Shown here: positions 12,540-20,409 of the stretch, piece after piece
Position numbering within the stretch: the first letter of the stretch is position 1
How the letters are laid out: each line of letters starts with the position of its first letter
Assembly: GCA_020846875.1 (NCBI GenBank)
Contig: JADLDB010000004.1
Span: forward strand, 1 to 47,284
DNA length: 47,284 nucleotides
Origin: Myxococcales bacterium
Lineage (GTDB): Bacteria > Myxococcota > Myxococcia > Myxococcales > Myxococcaceae
Reading direction: 5' to 3'
Position numbers and translations under genes: made by a program
Notes under the pieces: model-generated
The model's input: the letters and a program-made list of their open reading frames with translations, nothing else
Databases searched by the model: none
What the model was told of the DNA's origin: nothing

Positions 12540-13480
12540 CGGAAGCCTCCCTGGGGCTTGAGCACGCTGCCGGTGCCGGGCGTCTGCATGCGGCCGGCCG
12601 GTCCGAAGACGTTCTTCAGGCCGGCCCCCATCTCGGGGAGGAGCTGCGCGGGGCTGGACAGGCCGCGCTGGCTGGCGGTCATCAGCGGAGTCCCGTCGTC
12701 GTCCACCATGCCGACGCCGGTGGGCGCGGGGCGGGGGCTGCGCGCCGGCGTGCCGTCGGGTCGCACCCAGGTGTCGCCGGCCGAAGCGCTGGCCACGCCC
12801 GCCGCGCCCGCCGCGCCGCCGTTGCGATCGCTGCCCGGCCCCAGGGACACCACGTGGGTGACCAGATCGAAGCTCTCGGTCAGCTTCCCTTCCTTCCAGG
12901 TGACGGTGAGGTGCACCTCGCGGACCGACTTCTGAAGCTGATCGACCATCTGAGTGAACTGCGCCTGGGCCACCCCCGCCATCGGCCCCAGCGCCCCCAA
13001 GAGGCCCGCCGCGCCGCCCTGTCCTCCGGGCTGGGTGCCGGGGGGCAGCCCCGCCGCCGCCGCGGGATCACCCTTGCCCCCGGCGCCGAAGAGCGCGCCC
13101 AGCAGCCCGGCCGCGCCGCCCGCGCCGTCTGCGCCGGTCCCGCCCAGCGGCAGGTTGAAGAGCGCCCCGAAGAGCTGCTCGGGGGACAGGCCGTTCGTCT
13201 TGGGCACGATGATCTTCGCGCGCCACTTGTAGGACGGCCAGCCTTCGTCGCTGAAGTCGCCTGCGTCCTCGTCGTCCTCGGCGTTGAGGCCTTCGTCGTA
13301 CAGCTTCTGCTCGAGGTCGATCATCTTCCCGCGCGCCAGCAGCGTCGCGACGGTCAGCTTCTTGGCGTACACGTGCGAGTAGACGGCGTTGGAGTTGATG
13401 TCGAGGACAGCCATCAGCGACACGGCGAGGATCGCCAGCGCCACCACGACTTCCAGGAGGGTGAAGGCGCGGCGGCTCAT
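12536..13480 (-). CDS. gspI: Minor pseudopilin GspI, with long low-complexity extension
   Basis: 314 residues from ATG 13480 (ATGA overlap with gspH; GGAGG 10 bases upstream). The N-terminus is MSRRA then FTLLEVVVALAILAVSLMA: a prepilin signal with Ala instead of Gly at -1 and Glu at +5. The typical GspI is only about 120-130 residues. Here the pseudopilin core is interrupted by a Gly/Ala/Leu-rich stretch with two GLLGAL copies (about 115-170) and followed by a Gly/Ala/Pro-rich tail (about 225-314). The core strands (YKWRAKIIVPK; VREVHLTVTWKEGK; SFDLVTHVVSL) are still recognisable. Role: nucleates the pseudopilus tip with GspJ and GspK. Confidence 0.9.
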   Translation of the reverse strand: MSRRAFTLLEVVVALAILAVSLMAVLDINSNAVYSHVYAKKLTVATLLARGKMIDLEQKLYDEGLNAEDDEDAGDFSDEGWPSYKWRAKIIVPKTNGLSPEQLFGALFNLPLGGTGADGAGGAAGLLGALFGAGGKGDPAAAAGLPPGTQPGGQGGAAGLLGALGPMAGVAQAQFTQMVDQLQKSVREVHLTVTWKEGKLTESFDLVTHVVSLGPGSDRNGGAAGAAGVASASAGDTWVRPDGTPARSPRPAPTGVGMVDDDGTPLMTASQRGLSSPAQLLPEMGAGLKNVFGPAGRMQTPGTGSVLKPQGGFR

Positions 13481-14175
13481 GTGCGCGGCACCTCCAGATC
13501 CTCGTTGTGGATCACCGTCTTCCCGGTGAGGGAGGAGATGGTCAGGGTCCAGGTGTTGTCGCCCTGGCGCACCCACACCTGGGCCTTCTCCGTGTAGCCC
13601 TGGGGGAAGAAGTACAGGTACGCGGTGCCGTGCTTCACCGGCTGGCGCTGCTTCTGGGTCCACACCTCGACGGTGACGTTGGACGGCAGCGACTTCTCCA
13701 CCACGTCCTCGCTGGAGAAGGACGAGAACTTCGCCGCTTCCTCCACCCGGTGCTGCTCGCGGGCCTGCAGCTCCTGCACGGTGGGGGCGCTGTCCGACGC
13801 CAGCGGCTTGAAGCGGTCGTCTTCCCGCTCGCGCTCCCCGTCCCGCTTCTCCTTCGAGTTGGCCAGGCGCAGCTCGTCGTCGCGCTTGGCCCCCGCGGTG
13901 ACGCCGCCCTTCGCGCACTCCGCCCGCCAGGTGACGTGCCCGTCTTCCTCGCGCTCCTCGGGCAGCTCGAAGACCAGCCGGCAGGTGCGGCCGGACAGCG
14001 CCGCCGAGTCGTACAGCGCGCGGATGGTGCCGGCCAGCTCGGCCGCCGACTCCTTCGCCTTCGCGCCGGTGAGCGCGCCCACGCTGAACACCACCGCGGC
14101 GAACAGCAGCACGATGATGCCCAGGGCGACGGTGATCTCGATCAGGGTGAGCCCCCTGGGCGCGCGGCGCTTCAC
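13477..14175 (-). CDS. gspH: Minor pseudopilin GspH
   Basis: 232 residues from GTG 14175. This start is supported by GGAGG five bases upstream and by a GTGA overlap with the preceding microprotein stop. The leader KRRAPRG is followed by LTLIEITVALGIIVLLFAAV (Gly -1, Glu +5). The soluble domain holds a highly charged, probably coiled insertion at about residues 105-170 rich in Glu/Arg/Lys, then beta strands typical of GspH (YLYFFPQGYTEKAQVWV). GspH links the tip complex to the GspG fibre. Its stop overlaps the gspI start. Confidence 0.9.
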   Translation of the reverse strand: MKRRAPRGLTLIEITVALGIIVLLFAAVVFSVGALTGAKAKESAAELAGTIRALYDSAALSGRTCRLVFELPEEREEDGHVTWRAECAKGGVTAGAKRDDELRLANSKEKRDGEREREDDRFKPLASDSAPTVQELQAREQHRVEEAAKFSSFSSEDVVEKSLPSNVTVEVWTQKQRQPVKHGTAYLYFFPQGYTEKAQVWVRQGDNTWTLTISSLTGKTVIHNEDLEVPRT

Positions 14176-14285
14176 AGTAGCCTCCGCAGCAGATCGACGA
14201 CCAGCCACACCGCGGCGCTCGCGCCCAGCGCGATCCCGAAGGTGAGGGGCGAGAGGCCCTGGCTCTTGTCGTCGGTCTTCTTCAT
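14172..14285 (-). CDS. 37-residue single-pass membrane microprotein between gspG and gspH
   Basis: An ATG at 14285 lies 4 bases after the gspG stop, and the TGA at 14174-14172 overlaps the gspH GTG start (GTGA). The product is 37 residues: a charged N-terminus (MKKTDDKSQG), one predicted membrane helix (about 14-31, TFGIALGASAAVWLVV) and a basic end (RRLL). The gspH ribosome-binding sequence GGAGG sits inside this ORF. Third codon positions are almost all G or C. The position between essential genes, exact coupling and codon bias support translation. I recognise no family. It could instead be a leader that only serves to couple gspG and gspH translation. No Shine-Dalgarno is visible, so re-initiation is likely. 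Confidence 0.68.
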   Translation of the reverse strand: MKKTDDKSQGLSPLTFGIALGASAAVWLVVDLLRRLL

Positions 14286-14289
14286 CGGC

Positions 14290-14715
14290 TCACTGCTTGG
14301 GGCTGGCGGAGTCCTTGCTGGAGAGATCGGTGTCGTACTCGCTGCCCCCGGGGGCGCCGTCCTTGCCGTAGGACATGATCACCGGCTTGCCGCCCTCGTT
14401 GAGGTACACGTACTCGTGATCCCAGGGATCGACCGGCATCTTCTCGAGGATCTGCGCGTCGACGAGCGCCTTGAGGCCTGCGCCCGTGTCCGGGTAGTTC
14501 CCCTTCTTCGCGTAGTAGGTCTTGAGCGCGTTGCCGATGTTGGCGATGTCCATCTTCGCGCGGTCCACCTTGGCCTCTTCGAGGCGGGGGATGACGGCCA
14601 CGCCCACCGCGGCCATCAGCAGCGAGAGGATGGTGATCACGACGATGATCTCGATCAGCGTCATGCCGCGCGGGCCTGCGCGGCGGCGGGCGAGCTGTCG
14701 GGGGAAGGACTTCAT
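14290..14715 (-). CDS. gspG: Major pseudopilin GspG
   Basis: 141 residues from ATG 14715, which is preceded by AAAGGA about 10 bases upstream. GTG 14742 (150 residues), overlapping the preceding microprotein stop as GTGA, is the alternative start. A basic leader ends ARRRAGPRG, followed by MTLIEIIVVITILSLLMAAV (Gly -1, Glu +5). The body holds the highly conserved GspG pattern: IGNALKTYYAKKGNYPDT, then VDPWDHEYVY and the Ca-binding C-terminal loop region ending DTDLSSKD. GspG polymerises into the periplasmic pseudopilus that acts as a piston. The full signature makes this one of the surest calls in the window. Confidence 0.96.
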   Translation of the reverse strand: MKSFPRQLARRRAGPRGMTLIEIIVVITILSLLMAAVGVAVIPRLEEAKVDRAKMDIANIGNALKTYYAKKGNYPDTGAGLKALVDAQILEKMPVDPWDHEYVYLNEGGKPVIMSYGKDGAPGGSEYDTDLSSKDSASPKQ

Positions 14716-14738: not shown

Positions 14739-14852
14739 TCACAGGTAGAGCAGCACGCCCACGCAGACCAGCGAGGCGGCCAGGGCCAGGAGGGTGGTGG
14801 TGACGGCGCGTTGGATCAGCTGGTCGCGCCGGGAGAGGACGGTGGGGCTCAT
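14739..14852 (-). CDS. 37-residue single-pass membrane microprotein between gspF and gspG
   Basis: ATG 14852 overlaps the gspF stop by one base (TGATG), and TGA 14741-14739 overlaps the alternative gspG GTG start. The product is exactly 37 residues: a basic N-terminal segment (VLSRRDQLIQR), then a hydrophobic helix from about residue 17 to the end (AVTTTLLALAASLVCVGVLL). The positive-inside rule predicts a cytoplasmic N-terminus with the C-terminus at or beyond the periplasmic face. GC3 bias is strong. There is no sequence similarity beyond composition with the other 37-residue ORF. I know no named family; it is a candidate platform-associated T2SS microprotein or a translation-coupling peptide. 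Confidence 0.68.
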   Translation of the reverse strand: MSPTVLSRRDQLIQRAVTTTLLALAASLVCVGVLLYL

Positions 14853-16123
14853 CAGTGCACCATGGAGTTCATCTGGAGAATGGGCATCAGGATGGAGAAG
14901 GCGACGAAAGAGATGACCGCCCCCATCAGCACGATCATCATCGGCTCGAGCAGGGCGGTGAGCGCGCCGATCCGCACGTTGACCGACGACTCGTAGCTCT
15001 CGGCGACGTTGAGCAGCATGTCCTCCAGTTGGCCGGACCGCTCGCCGATCGCCACCATGTGGAAGACCAGCGGAGGAAACTCCCCGGACTTCTTGAGCGG
15101 GTTGGCGATCGACTCGCCTTCGCGAATGGCGTCGCGCGCGGTGTCGATCACCGCCGACATCACCGAGTTGGTGATCACGTTCTTCACGATGTCGAGCGCG
15201 GTGAGCAGCGGCACGCCGGACTTGAGCAGCGTGGCCAGGGTGCGCGCGAAGCGGGCCACCGCCAACTGGCGGACCAGGGGACCGAAGACGGGGATCTTCA
15301 GCACCACCCGGTCCCACTTCGGCTTGCCCGACTCCGAGCGCGACCAGCGCAGGAAGGCGACCGCCCCGCCGATCAACATCGGCACCACGATGAACCAGTA
15401 GTCCTGCAGGAACTTCGAGCTGAAGATCAGCAGCTTGGTCGTCCAGGGCAGGGTGACCTTCATGTCGTCGAAGATCTTGGTCACCTTGGGCACCACCACC
15501 GTCATCAGCATGATCAACACGCCGCCGCCGATAACCATCATGATCACCGGGTAGATCATGGTGCCGACGATCTTCTGACGGAGCCGCGCCTGGCCTTCGG
15601 TGAACTCCGCCAGCCGCAGCAGCACCGAGTCCAGCGCGCCCGAGCTCTCACCCGCGCGGATCATGTTGATGAACAGCGGCCCGAAGGTCTTCACGTGGTG
15701 CCCCAGCGCGTCGGCCAGGCTGGATCCCTCGTTCACCCGCTGCTTCACGTCCGAGAGGATGCGCTTGAGCTGCTCCTTCTCCACCTGGTCCACCATGGCG
15801 GTGAGCGCTTCCACCAGCGTCACGCCCGCCTTGAGCAGCGTCGCCAGTTGCCGGGTCATCACCGCGATGTCGTCGGTGTTGACGCCTCCGCGGGCCAGGC
15901 GGCGCAGGTTGATGTCCTGCGCCAGCACCGAGCCGGCCGCCTTCGCCGCCCCCTTCGCCGTCTTGCCGGGCTTGAGCGAGCCTTCCGCCTCGGCCACCAC
16001 GTCGGTGACGAAGATCCCGTCCTTCTTGAGCACCGCGCGCAGGCTCCTCGGCGAGTCGGCCTCCTTGAGGCCGGTCACCGACTTCCCCGCGGCGTTGAGC
16101 CCTTTGTACTCGAAGACGGCCAT
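14852..16123 (-). CDS. gspF: Type II secretion inner-membrane platform protein GspF
   Basis: 423 residues. N-terminal MAVFEYKGLNAAGKSVTG is the classic start of the GspF/PilC family. Two homologous T2SSF cytoplasmic domains follow (about 85-205 and 285-405), each with the GESSGALDSVLLRLAE / GERSGQLEDMLLNVAE pattern, and three membrane segments (about 185-207, 235-252, 395-415). A Lys/Ala-rich linker at about 45-70 separates the N-terminal helix. GspF is the polytopic platform protein that couples GspE ATP hydrolysis to pseudopilus assembly. It starts 6 bases after the gspE stop. Confidence 0.96.
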   Translation of the reverse strand: MAVFEYKGLNAAGKSVTGLKEADSPRSLRAVLKKDGIFVTDVVAEAEGSLKPGKTAKGAAKAAGSVLAQDINLRRLARGGVNTDDIAVMTRQLATLLKAGVTLVEALTAMVDQVEKEQLKRILSDVKQRVNEGSSLADALGHHVKTFGPLFINMIRAGESSGALDSVLLRLAEFTEGQARLRQKIVGTMIYPVIMMVIGGGVLIMLMTVVVPKVTKIFDDMKVTLPWTTKLLIFSSKFLQDYWFIVVPMLIGGAVAFLRWSRSESGKPKWDRVVLKIPVFGPLVRQLAVARFARTLATLLKSGVPLLTALDIVKNVITNSVMSAVIDTARDAIREGESIANPLKKSGEFPPLVFHMVAIGERSGQLEDMLLNVAESYESSVNVRIGALTALLEPMMIVLMGAVISFVAFSILMPILQMNSMVH

Positions 16124-16129
16124 GGCGGC

Positions 16130-17917
16130 TTAGAGGTCCTCCTGCGTCACCGACAACACCTCGGCGATGGTGGTCTGCCCCTGCGCGACCTTGAGCGCGC
16201 CGTCGTCGAGCAGCGTGAGCATGCCCTTCTCCATCGCCTTCTTCTTGATGGTGCCGGAGTCGACGTTCTTGAGGATCAACTGCCGGACGTCGTCGTCGAC
16301 GATGAGCAGCTCGTAGATGCCGGTGCGCCCCCGGTAGCCGGCGCGCCCGCAGGCGGGGCAGCCCCTGGCCCGGTACGTGGTCTCGCCGCCCAGGGCGCGG
16401 AAGCGGTCGCGGCTCATGCCCAGCTTGGAGAGCTCTTCGTCGGTGGGCTCGTGCGGCTCGCGGCACTCCATGCACACCCGGCGCACCAGGCGCTGCGCCA
16501 TCACCGCCATCAGCGACGACGACACCAGGAACGGCTCTACCCCCATCTCCACCAGGCGGGTGACGGCGCCGGCCGCGTCGTTGGTGTGCACCGTGGAGAA
16601 CACCAGGTGGCCGGTGAGCGACGCCTCGATGGCGATGTTCGCCGTCTCCTTGTCGCGGATCTCCCCGACCATGATGATGTCCGGGTCCTGCCGGAGGAAG
16701 CTGCGCAGCCCCGACGCGAAGGTCAGCCCGATCTTCGGGTTGATCGGCATCTGGTTGATGCCCTTGAGCTGGTACTCCACCGGATCCTCGACGGTGAGGA
16801 TCTTCACCTCCGGCGTGTTGATCCGCGTGAGCGCGCCGTACAGGGTGGTGGTCTTCCCCGAGCCGGTGGGGCCGGTGACCAGGACGATCCCGTGGCTGCG
16901 GCGGATCAGCTCGTCGATCTCTTTGAGGATCCCCGGGTTCATCCCGATCTCGGCCAGGTCGAGCAGGGTGGCGCTCTTGTCGAGCAGCCGCATGACGATC
17001 GACTCCCCGTGCACGGTGGGGATGGTGGACACGCGAATGTCGATGTCTCGGCCGGCCAGCTTGATCTTGATGCGGCCGTCCTGGGGCAGACGCTTCTCGG
17101 CGATGTTCAGCTGCGCCATGATCTTCACGCGGCTGATGATCGAGTTCTGGTAGCGCTTGGGCGGCTTGATGATGTTGTGCAGCACGCCGTCGATCCGGAA
17201 GCGCACCGCCAGGTCGCGCTCCATCGGCTCTATGTGAATGTCGCTGGCCCGCTCCTTCGCCGCGCGGAAGAGCAGGGAGTTGACCAGGCGGATGATCGGC
17301 GCCTCGTCGCCCGAGTCCAGCAGGTCCTGCGCTTCCTCCAGCACCTGCTCGGCGGCGTCGAGGTCCTGCGCCTCCATCTCGCCCACCACCTGCTCCGCTT
17401 CGTTCAGGCTGCGGTCGTAGACGGAGTTGATGGCGTCGATGATCGTGCTGCCGCGCGACACCCGGGGCTCCACCTCGCAGCCCAACAGCATGCGCGCGTG
17501 ATCGAGCAGCGCCGTGTCCAGTGGATCGGCCACCGCCACCGCCACGAAGTCGCCCACCCGCTTCAGGGGGATGAACTTGGCCTGCTTGGCGAAGTTGATC
17601 GGCACCTGCTTCACCAGCTCGGGATCGACGTCGTCCACCGAGATGAAGGCCAGGTACTCGAGGTCGAGCTGGGCACCCAGGGCCCGGCTCACGTCCTCCT
17701 CGCTGACGGCCTTGAGGCCCACCAGCACCTCACCCAGCCGGCCGCCCTTCTCCTGCTGCGCCGCCAGCCCCTCCTCCAGCTTCTCGCGGGGCAGGCCAAA
17801 GCTCTCCACCAGGATCTCGCCCAGCGGGCGCCCGAAGAGGTACGCGGGGCCGTGCGTCACGACGTGCGTGCGCTCGGTCCGCGGCTCCTCCCGGACGTTG
17901 TCGGGCGACTCGCTCAT
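16130..17917 (-). CDS. gspE: Type II secretion ATPase GspE
   Basis: 595 residues from ATG 17917 (TGATG with the gspD stop; GTG 17920 is an equally coupled alternative). N1E/MshEN-like domains (about 20-200, with LFGRPLGEILV and LGEVLVGLKAV) precede the secretion ATPase core. The Walker A motif GPTGSGKT is at 349-356; Asp-box TVEDPVEY and Walker B-like IIMVGEIRD follow, then the His-box region LVFSTVHTNDA. A tetracysteine zinc motif is present: Cys482-x2-Cys485 ... Cys520-x2-Cys523, typical of GspE. It is a cytoplasmic hexamer that drives pseudopilus assembly and docks on GspL and GspF. Confidence 0.96.
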   Translation of the reverse strand: MSESPDNVREEPRTERTHVVTHGPAYLFGRPLGEILVESFGLPREKLEEGLAAQQEKGGRLGEVLVGLKAVSEEDVSRALGAQLDLEYLAFISVDDVDPELVKQVPINFAKQAKFIPLKRVGDFVAVAVADPLDTALLDHARMLLGCEVEPRVSRGSTIIDAINSVYDRSLNEAEQVVGEMEAQDLDAAEQVLEEAQDLLDSGDEAPIIRLVNSLLFRAAKERASDIHIEPMERDLAVRFRIDGVLHNIIKPPKRYQNSIISRVKIMAQLNIAEKRLPQDGRIKIKLAGRDIDIRVSTIPTVHGESIVMRLLDKSATLLDLAEIGMNPGILKEIDELIRRSHGIVLVTGPTGSGKTTTLYGALTRINTPEVKILTVEDPVEYQLKGINQMPINPKIGLTFASGLRSFLRQDPDIIMVGEIRDKETANIAIEASLTGHLVFSTVHTNDAAGAVTRLVEMGVEPFLVSSSLMAVMAQRLVRRVCMECREPHEPTDEELSKLGMSRDRFRALGGETTYRARGCPACGRAGYRGRTGIYELLIVDDDVRQLILKNVDSGTIKKKAMEKGMLTLLDDGALKVAQGQTTIAEVLSVTQEDL

Positions 17918-20409
17918 CACTCGAGCTCCGGCTGGACCTTCAGCGTCTCGGGGTTGGGCTCCTGCACCGGCACCGGCGGCGGCGCGGGGGTGCCTTCGGG
18001 GGCGATCATCGGCGTGGGCGCGGGCGGCGCCTCGCTGTCCGGTGGCGAGCTGGACGGGTTCGACGGAGGCCCCTGGGGGGTGATGACGCGCTCGCCCTCG
18101 CCGCCTGGCCCGCCGTTCTCCACCTTCCGCAGCTCCTTGTTGAGCAGCTGCCCCATGCGCGCCAGCGGGCCAGGCTTGCGCGCGAAGTCGATGGCCACGT
18201 CGTAGGTGGTGGTGGCCCCGTAGAACTGCTCCACGAATTGCTGCCGCTCCTTCATCTTCCGCTCGAAGATCCGCCGGAAGTCCGACGAGTCGCGGATGAT
18301 GTAGGGCGTCAGGAAGAGCAGCAGGTTGGTCTTGATCTTCTGCCGCGTCTGGCTGCGGAAGAGGTGCCCCAGCACCGGAATGTCGCCCAGCAGCGGCACC
18401 TTGGACACGCTCTCCACCAGGCGGTCCTGCATGATCCCGCCGATCACCACCGTCTCCTGGTCCTTCGCCACCACCGTGGTCTTCGCGGTGCGCTTGGAGG
18501 TGGTGGGCCCGAGGATCGGATCCTTGGAGGCGATCTCTTCGATCTGCTCGGTGATCACCAGGCGCACGTAGTCGCTCTCGTTGATCTGCGGCTTCACCGA
18601 CAGCTTCAGGTCCACGTTCTGCCGCTGGATGGAGCCGAAGGGGATGCCCGAGAAGCCCGCGGTGTTCAGGCCGGAGGTGCCGGTGGCGCCCCCCAGCCCG
18701 GGGATCCCGCTGAAGCCGCCGGTCGAGAAGCCGGACTGAAACGGCACGTTCTGGCCCACGGTGATCTCCGCCTCCTCGTTGTCGGTGGTGAGGATGTGCG
18801 GGGTGGACAGCACGTTCACGTCGCTGGACGTCTGCAGCGCGTTGATCACGATGCCGAAGGACGGGATCTCGATCCCCCCGATGTTGAGGCCGGGGATGGT
18901 GGGGCCCTGCAGGCCGGCCAGGAAGCCGCCCATGCTGACCAGGTTGGCCACGCTGATCGACGGCGGCAGCCCGGCGCCCTTGGTGTACTTGGTGCCGACG
19001 AAGGCCGGCACCGTGCCCTGCTCGGTCTGCACAGGGATGCCGGTGTGCACGTTGACGCCGAGCTCGGCCGAGCGGTCCAGGTTGACCTCCATGATCACCG
19101 CCTCGACGAAGACCTGGCGGCGCATGATGTCCAGCTTCTCGATCACCCGGAGGATGCTCCGGTAGTCCGTCTGGCTGGCGATGATCACCAGCGAGTTGGT
19201 GGACTTGTCGGCGCTGATCTTCACCTCGCCCTGGAACAGCTCGGCCGCGCCACCGGGCGCGCGGGCTCCACCGGGCGGAGGCGGGGGGGCCTTGGGCTTG
19301 TTGGCGGTGCCCTGGGCCAGCGTCTGCAGCGTCGACGCCACGTCCTCCGCGTTGGCGTTCTCCAGGTACAACACGTTGATCCGCCCCTCGCCGGAGATGG
19401 GAATGTCGATCTCGCGGATCAGCGCGTCGATGCGGTCCATCGCGGCCGGGCTGGCGATGACGATCAGCTTGTTGGTGCGCTCGTCGGGGATCAGCTGCGA
19501 CAGCGTGGCGGCCCCACCCCCGCCCTCGGCCTCTCCGTGCGGCGCGCTGGGCGGCGGCGGCGCTCCCGGCACCGGCGGAGGCGCCATCACCTTTGCTTGC
19601 CCCGGCCGCTGCCCCGGCCGGTTGGCCTTGGTCTCGAACAGCTTCTGCACCTTGTCCGCGATCTCCTGCGCCGTCGCGTACTTGATCTGGATGACGCGGA
19701 TCGAGTCGGACGCCGAGCTCGAGTCGAGCTGCTCGACGATCTTCTCCAGGCGGTGCATGTTCGAGCCCAGATCGTTGACCAGGATCGTGTCCGGCTGGAA
19801 GGGGATGGTGTCGCCCGACGGCGTGACCAACTGCTGCAGCACGCCGCGGAGCTGCTCGATCTCCACGTGCTTCACCTTGAAGATGCGCGTCACCATCTGC
19901 TCGTTGGTGGTGTAGACCTCGCTGGGATCGGTGATGGTCGGGATCGGGAACTGCTTGGCCCGCTGCTTGTCCACGATCTTCATGAACTTGCCGTGCTCGT
20001 AGGCAGCCAGGCTGTTCGCATCGAGCGCGGCGAGGAAGGCGGCGTAGAACTGGTCGGCGTTGACCTCCACCTTCCCGTTCTCTGGGCCGATGATGGAGAT
20101 CTTCCCGCGGATGTTCTCTGGCAGGATGAACGTCTTGCAGGTGACGTCCGAGACGGTCTGCACCAGCTTCTCGATCTCTACCTTGTCGAAGTAGATGTTG
20201 TAGCGGCCCTTGCGGCGCTGCTCCTCGCAGGACGGACGCTTGGGCGCGATGGTGGCCTCACCGGCGGCGGGCGCAGCGCCAGCGGGCGCAGGCGCGGGCA
20301 GAGCGGGCGCACGAGGCCCGGGTGGGCGCGGGCCGGGGGGCGGCGGAGCAGCGGGCTGGGCCAGCGCGACCAGGGACCAGCAGAGCGCGACGAGGGACAG
20401 GCGTTTCAT
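17917..20409 (-). CDS. gspD: Type II secretion outer-membrane secretin GspD
   Basis: 830 residues. A signal peptide (about 1-17, cleaved near SLVALA) is followed by a Pro/Ala-rich linker (to about 50), then N0 (YNIYFDKVEIEKLVQTVSD) and three KH-like N domains. A Gly/Pro-rich loop (about 270-300) and a second one (about 385-395) interrupt the N domains. The secretin barrel region holds EAVIMEVNLDRSAELGVN and the signature VPLLGDIPVLGHLFRSQ at about 690. The C-terminus is Pro/Glu-rich. No pilotin or S-domain match can be judged by eye. It forms the outer-membrane channel. Confidence 0.96.
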   Translation of the reverse strand: MKRLSLVALCWSLVALAQPAAPPPPGPRPPGPRAPALPAPAPAGAAPAAGEATIAPKRPSCEEQRRKGRYNIYFDKVEIEKLVQTVSDVTCKTFILPENIRGKISIIGPENGKVEVNADQFYAAFLAALDANSLAAYEHGKFMKIVDKQRAKQFPIPTITDPSEVYTTNEQMVTRIFKVKHVEIEQLRGVLQQLVTPSGDTIPFQPDTILVNDLGSNMHRLEKIVEQLDSSSASDSIRVIQIKYATAQEIADKVQKLFETKANRPGQRPGQAKVMAPPPVPGAPPPPSAPHGEAEGGGGAATLSQLIPDERTNKLIVIASPAAMDRIDALIREIDIPISGEGRINVLYLENANAEDVASTLQTLAQGTANKPKAPPPPPGGARAPGGAAELFQGEVKISADKSTNSLVIIASQTDYRSILRVIEKLDIMRRQVFVEAVIMEVNLDRSAELGVNVHTGIPVQTEQGTVPAFVGTKYTKGAGLPPSISVANLVSMGGFLAGLQGPTIPGLNIGGIEIPSFGIVINALQTSSDVNVLSTPHILTTDNEEAEITVGQNVPFQSGFSTGGFSGIPGLGGATGTSGLNTAGFSGIPFGSIQRQNVDLKLSVKPQINESDYVRLVITEQIEEIASKDPILGPTTSKRTAKTTVVAKDQETVVIGGIMQDRLVESVSKVPLLGDIPVLGHLFRSQTRQKIKTNLLLFLTPYIIRDSSDFRRIFERKMKERQQFVEQFYGATTTYDVAIDFARKPGPLARMGQLLNKELRKVENGGPGGEGERVITPQGPPSNPSSSPPDSEAPPAPTPMIAPEGTPAPPPVPVQEPNPETLKVQPELE

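Follow-up and report, generated by a model that had tools for sequence, protein, structure and literature searches.

KdpF is an operon-encoded accessory subunit that consists of a single helix. CydX, a 37-aa subunit of the E. coli cytochrome bd oxidase, is encoded in the oxidase operon, has few conserved residues and is patchily distributed, according to a published account (PMC4325964). For the type II secretion system (T2SS), excerpts of one description place GspF at the centre of the assembly platform with the single-pass proteins GspC, GspL and GspM around it, and report a contact between GspF and GspG (PMC8134430); excerpts of another describe GspN as a platform part that occurs in some T2SS only (PMC10128026). 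Described here is a T2SS with one extra small protein, which we call MP1, found in a stretch of 47,284 nucleotides from a Myxococcales bacterium (contig JADLDB010000004.1; hereafter ‘the window’). We are nearly certain that MP1 is a conserved T2SS-linked protein, and we give about even chances to a role as a small inner-membrane accessory to the assembly platform, a subunit of much the same kind as CydX and KdpF. The features of the locus that bear on these readings are as follows.

14739..14852, minus strand: MP1, a 37-aa single-helix microprotein whose gene shares 1 nt with the gspF stop
14742..14825, minus strand: residues 10-37 of MP1, which take in the conserved core (10-36), made up of a basic/polar interface, the helix and the terminal LY
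14852..16123, minus strand: gspF, assembly platform protein (TIGR02120, 496.9 bits against a cut-off of 424)
16130..17920, minus strand: gspE ATPase (TIGR02533, 749.5 bits against a cut-off of 630.25)
14290..14715, minus strand: gspG, major pseudopilin, with its ATG start at 14715 (TIGR01710, 89.8 bits against a cut-off of 88.85)
14172..14285, minus strand: MP2, another 37-aa microprotein with a single helix, lying between gspG and gspH
13477..14175, minus strand: gspH-like pseudopilin, whose GTG start overlaps the MP2 stop

The gene order on the minus strand is thus gspE, gspF, MP1, gspG, MP2 (14285-14172) and gspH. GspC, D, E, F, G, J and N of the window, the last a large protein (TIGR04411), scored above NCBIfam or Pfam cut-offs, GspH, I, K and L were under the NCBIfam cut-offs and were recognised from profile and place, and GspM was assigned from position only. 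With the canonical Gsp genes from C to N present (GspM by position only), MP1 is therefore presumably no stand-in for a missing one. The MP1 product, read from 14852 to 14739, is MSPTVLSRRDQLIQRAVTTTLLALAASLVCVGVLLYL (37 aa). The A of the MP1 ATG is at once the last letter of the gspF stop (TGATG), and the MP1 TGA overlaps an alternative gspG GTG at 14742; the ATG at 14715, with AAAGGA upstream, is the likelier gspG start. A reading made from the sequence alone (hereafter ‘the sequence-only reading’) had described an ORF that encodes a membrane helix, overlaps the gspF stop by a single base and ends inside the alternative gspG start, and had seen the codon bias of a real gene in it. We found that ORF at 14852-14739 on the minus strand, and its GC content by codon position (0.68/0.47/0.95) does resemble that of its neighbours gspF (0.61/0.39/0.96) and gspG (0.61/0.42/0.94). 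The Shine-Dalgarno sequence before the MP1 start in the window is weak, with a run of 2, and translation of MP1 there therefore probably relies on coupling to gspF.

A GspF search gave matches in 186 of 193 Myxococcota genomes, at approximately 150 places or more among the matches listed, from which we picked 149 different loci for inspection of the gspF-gspG junction, leaving out L100 as a duplicate of L004. The window’s own family (f1) has Myxococcus, Corallococcus, Archangium, Pyxidicoccus, Hyalangium and Citreicoccus as named members, from which we infer that it is the Myxococcaceae. Here an MP1 orthologue lies between gspF and gspG at 92 of 93 loci, including that of M. xanthus AM003 (L184); 91 were called by an ORF rule, and the remaining one, L119, is cut by a contig end and was missed by that rule, and is counted as positive on an HMM match adjoining gspF. 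At L013, the sole f1 locus without MP1, the GspG pilin motif follows 53 nt past the gspF stop; this genome (G190) is 79% complete, MP2 was also not found in it by the rule used, and the absence of MP1 is possibly an assembly fault of an incomplete genome. Hydrophobic small ORFs occupy the gap at all 12 loci of f7 (1/1), f9 (4/4), f6 (2/2), f4 (3/3) and f10 (2/2). An HMM built from 85 distinct f1 sequences only, run on 2049 stop-to-stop frames from 56 other loci, recovered gap ORFs in these five further families of the class above all other frames: its top 11 matches are all gap ORFs (E 9e-8 to 0.14), and the next match, which lies elsewhere, has an E of 1.1. The single f4, f6 and f10 matches are weak, and the claim of homology rests on this ranking; the f10 gap ORF at L087 was not recovered.

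MP1 was not found at the compact gspF-gspG junctions of f2 (0/20), f3 (0/8) and f8 (0/1), at any of 14 loci of other classes, or in f5 (0/1), where the gap holds a different ORF. That ORF (L096), of 92 aa, passed the hydrophobicity rule and was excluded from the MP1 count, with no MP1 HMM match in its genome and no Pfam match. Two large sister groups lack MP1, which is therefore not universally required and does not, as a core subunit would, occur wherever the T2SS does. On a tree of the GspF C-terminus and GspG (106 of 148 rows after thinning to five per genus, L013 being thinned away and L119 excluded), the presence of MP1 changed at least twice, by gain or loss. Two side observations came from the same junctions. 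Four loci of family f13 (L084, L086, L088 and L092) carry a signal peptidase II-like gene in the gspF-gspG gap, and the one tested, at L086, matched PF01252 with 97.3 bits. The record BNCN01000003.1 (L173), titled Comamonas sp. KCTC 72670, holds a myxobacterial T2SS junction, and its name is probably wrong.

In consensus, the conserved core of MP1 runs D-R-W-I-Q-R, a stretch of some 20 apolar residues, then L-Y, and the tail beyond it is short or missing in the window’s relatives and longer and variable elsewhere. By the positive-inside rule, the basic flank of a membrane helix faces the cytoplasm. The basic residues of MP1 lie on the N side of its helix, which by this rule points to an N-in/C-out topology. 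Within the helix, L28 is invariant in f1, and the residues of lowest entropy (L21, A25, L28, G32 and L35) are spaced 4-3-4-3, with a marginal conservation moment (p 0.03). This conserved stripe suggests that one face of the helix may pack against a partner. We propose that MP1 would be translated as a single-pass inner-membrane microprotein and inserted N-in/C-out, with its D-x-W-I-Q-R segment at the cytoplasmic membrane surface and one helix face packed on a partner helix, most likely that of GspF, although GspG, GspL or GspM could equally serve, and that it would tune or stabilise the platform at the GspG loading site.

A protein that is no more than a helix and is made between GspF and GspG suits the role of a small platform accessory. 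The sequence-only reading had offered MP1 as a platform-associated T2SS component. The T2SS membrane microprotein in this claim is upheld by its conserved place, purifying selection, ribosome sites and single copy beside gspF, while association with the platform is plausible from linkage, topology and the conserved helix face. Against a platform subunit stand the absence of MP1 from 20/20 f2, 8/8 f3 and 1/1 f8 loci and from L013, a constraint that is below that on gspF and weak in the tail, and the marginal helix-face signal.

MP2, which lies on the far side of gspG, was overlooked in the sequence-only reading. It has a charged N-terminus, then G-L-S-P, then a helix, and was found in 18 of 193 genomes, all in f1 and with one match each; its dN/dS is 0.30-0.38 in genera g13 and g14. 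A profile comparison of MP1 with MP2 gave a probability below 1% that the two are related, in a test that is weak for single helices. At MP2’s place between gspG and gspH, 64 f1 loci instead encode a protein some 140-160 aa long that carries a T2SSG domain (PF08334; 3/3 proteins tested scored 47-59 bits, the cut-off being 21), seen in Myxococcus, Corallococcus, Archangium and their allies (e.g. L026, L038 and L044). This GspG-like protein has an N-terminal hydrophobic stretch, a predicted membrane helix, and no prepilin motif; judging by its sequence, it cannot be a normal pseudopilin. Ten further f1 loci have neither MP2 nor the GspG-like protein by a rule that may miss some. With MP1 before it and MP2 or the GspG-like protein after it, GspG in f1 therefore often has lineage-specific membrane proteins on both sides.

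This arrangement, in which MP1 is directly upstream of gspG and another lineage-specific membrane protein follows GspG in much of f1, would also fit a GspG-specific membrane helper, one that binds pre-GspG or GspG at the hydrophobic helix ahead of loading and is no subunit of the platform. MP1, however, is also present in lineages that lack both MP2 and the GspG-like protein, and we consider such a helper unlikely.

Over 43 disjoint pairs of f1 loci, the MP1 core (residues 10-36) has a pN/pS of 0.40 (p 1.6e-21), and over the 34 closer pairs it has one of 0.33, compared with 1.0-1.1 and 2.8-3.6 for the same DNA in the +1 and +2 frames. Constraint is stronger on gspF (0.11-0.17) than on MP1, and is weak in the MP1 N-extension (0.50-0.80) and tail (0.65-0.77). 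By genus, core dN/dS is 0.15-0.40 in six genera, with g14 unscored because the motif missed it and g13 represented by five of seven rows; whole-ORF values of 0.37-0.71 include doubtful starts and tails. MP1 therefore shows the purifying selection in its reading frame that marks a translated gene. The best MP1 starts are preceded by a Shine-Dalgarno run of at least 4 in 75 of 91 cases, as opposed to 19% in a matched null. The sequence-only reading had expected a real protein to be conserved between gspF and gspG in relatives and to be under purifying selection, with a dN/dS not near 1, and the 92/93 f1 loci, the 12/12 gap ORFs and the core pN/pS of 0.33-0.40 (shifted frames 1.0-3.6) bear out both expectations.

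These data also bear on the idea that the chief role of the ORF is to couple or pace translation between gspF and gspG, its peptide being of little importance. In the window, MP1 starts on the last base of the gspF stop and ends near the gspG start, which would suit that role, as would the weakly constrained tail and N-extension. It is nonetheless improbable given the clear purifying selection on the core and a helix that is recognisable across families, and most relatives have a Shine-Dalgarno sequence of MP1’s own and a highly variable spacing to gspG.

A T2SS subunit, which we favour, should keep to its operon. We searched the 193 Myxococcota genomes with a profile (A1) of 40 sequences from f1 and other families, and 116 genomes had matches at E<=0.01. 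The best 103 of the 111 top matches (at about E<=0.001, down to about E 4e-4) lie directly downstream of gspF on the same strand, with no MP1 copy away from gspF among them, and the remaining eight are weaker and not beside gspF. Some of the detected sequences are in A1 and are found by construction, which does not apply to the lack of strong copies elsewhere. The weakest f1 member, in G032 (E 0.0013), falls under the 111-match cut and is L046, where MP1 was called in the gap; the f1 genomes G174 and G178 have no MP1 match and also no good GspF match. The HMM found no relocated copy in the lineages without MP1, where weak matches lie mostly inside long frames. MP1 thus has the conserved operon place of a T2SS component and, in its best 103 matches, occurs with the T2SS and not apart from it, with eight weaker matches elsewhere.

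Single-helix microproteins of the size of MP1 often regulate membrane proteins. MgtR is one example (PMC6813294). MP1 might by that precedent act in the membrane as a regulator that is not part of the platform, for instance a protease adaptor or part of energy sensing, and be merely co-expressed with the T2SS, but none of the best 103 matches is anywhere but next to gspF, which makes this quite improbable. That MP1 is a spurious ORF or a decayed gene, as its mere 37 codons and its absence from L013, f2, f3 and f8 might suggest, is contradicted by frame-specific selection, start sites and cross-family HMM detection and is extremely improbable: MP1 is more than a chance ORF because it is at 92 of 93 family loci and its helix core is under frame-specific purifying selection.

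Neither MP1 nor MP2 reached the cut-off of any Pfam or NCBIfam family, 40 MP1 members gave scattered weak matches only against Pfam, and the best match in a PDB profile search with MP1 was an acetylcholine receptor chain (E 0.069), which we judged to be due to chance. As a detached helix of GspM, GspL, GspC, GspF or GspG, MP1 was rejected on profile comparisons (<1% probability, in a test that is weak for single helices). It was rejected as a pseudopilin since the window’s MP1 and the 39 other A1 members have no N_methyl match and hence lack the motif for prepilin cleavage and N-methylation, and as a CydX-family homologue since no such Pfam match was found among 40 members at E<=0.1. No description of such a protein was found in searches of the open-licence PMC literature; subscription papers could still hold one. 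The claim that MP1 is outside the standard T2SS parts list survives comparison with Pfam, NCBIfam, PDB and that literature.

In its fullest form, our reading makes MP1 an unrecognised T2SS subunit that is present in a large part of the class, M. xanthus among them. It would be a platform protein that is all helix and joins GspF, and of the lineage-specific membrane additions around GspG, at least two in number, it would be the older, the other being MP2 or the membrane-anchored, non-pilin GspG-like protein. To this we assign somewhat less than even chances. How GspF anchors the motor and how pseudopilins are loaded are poorly resolved, and a conserved helix-only neighbour of GspF in a genetically tractable predator, M. 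xanthus, would open a new way into the platform. Such a protein also suggests that subunits below the length that gene finders pick up can be missing from T2SS parts lists, and the related families, some with MP1 and some lacking it, provide a testable contrast.

Compared with known systems, MP1 resembles KdpF as an operon-encoded single helix and differs from it in its complex, with no sequence relation found in Pfam. It shares with GspC, GspL and GspM one transmembrane segment, the same operon and the same membrane, as these are described in PMC8134430 and PMC10128026; those proteins carry large soluble domains, whereas MP1 is a helix only (profile probabilities <1%). Like GspN, MP1 would be a lineage-restricted extra platform protein, putatively so in its case, although GspN is large and already present in the window. 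CydX belongs to another complex and has no Pfam link to MP1, whose association with the T2SS is putative. It is nevertheless like MP1 in being 37 aa long, in its place within the operon of a large complex, in its few conserved residues and patchy distribution, and in that further small proteins are encoded in sister operons.
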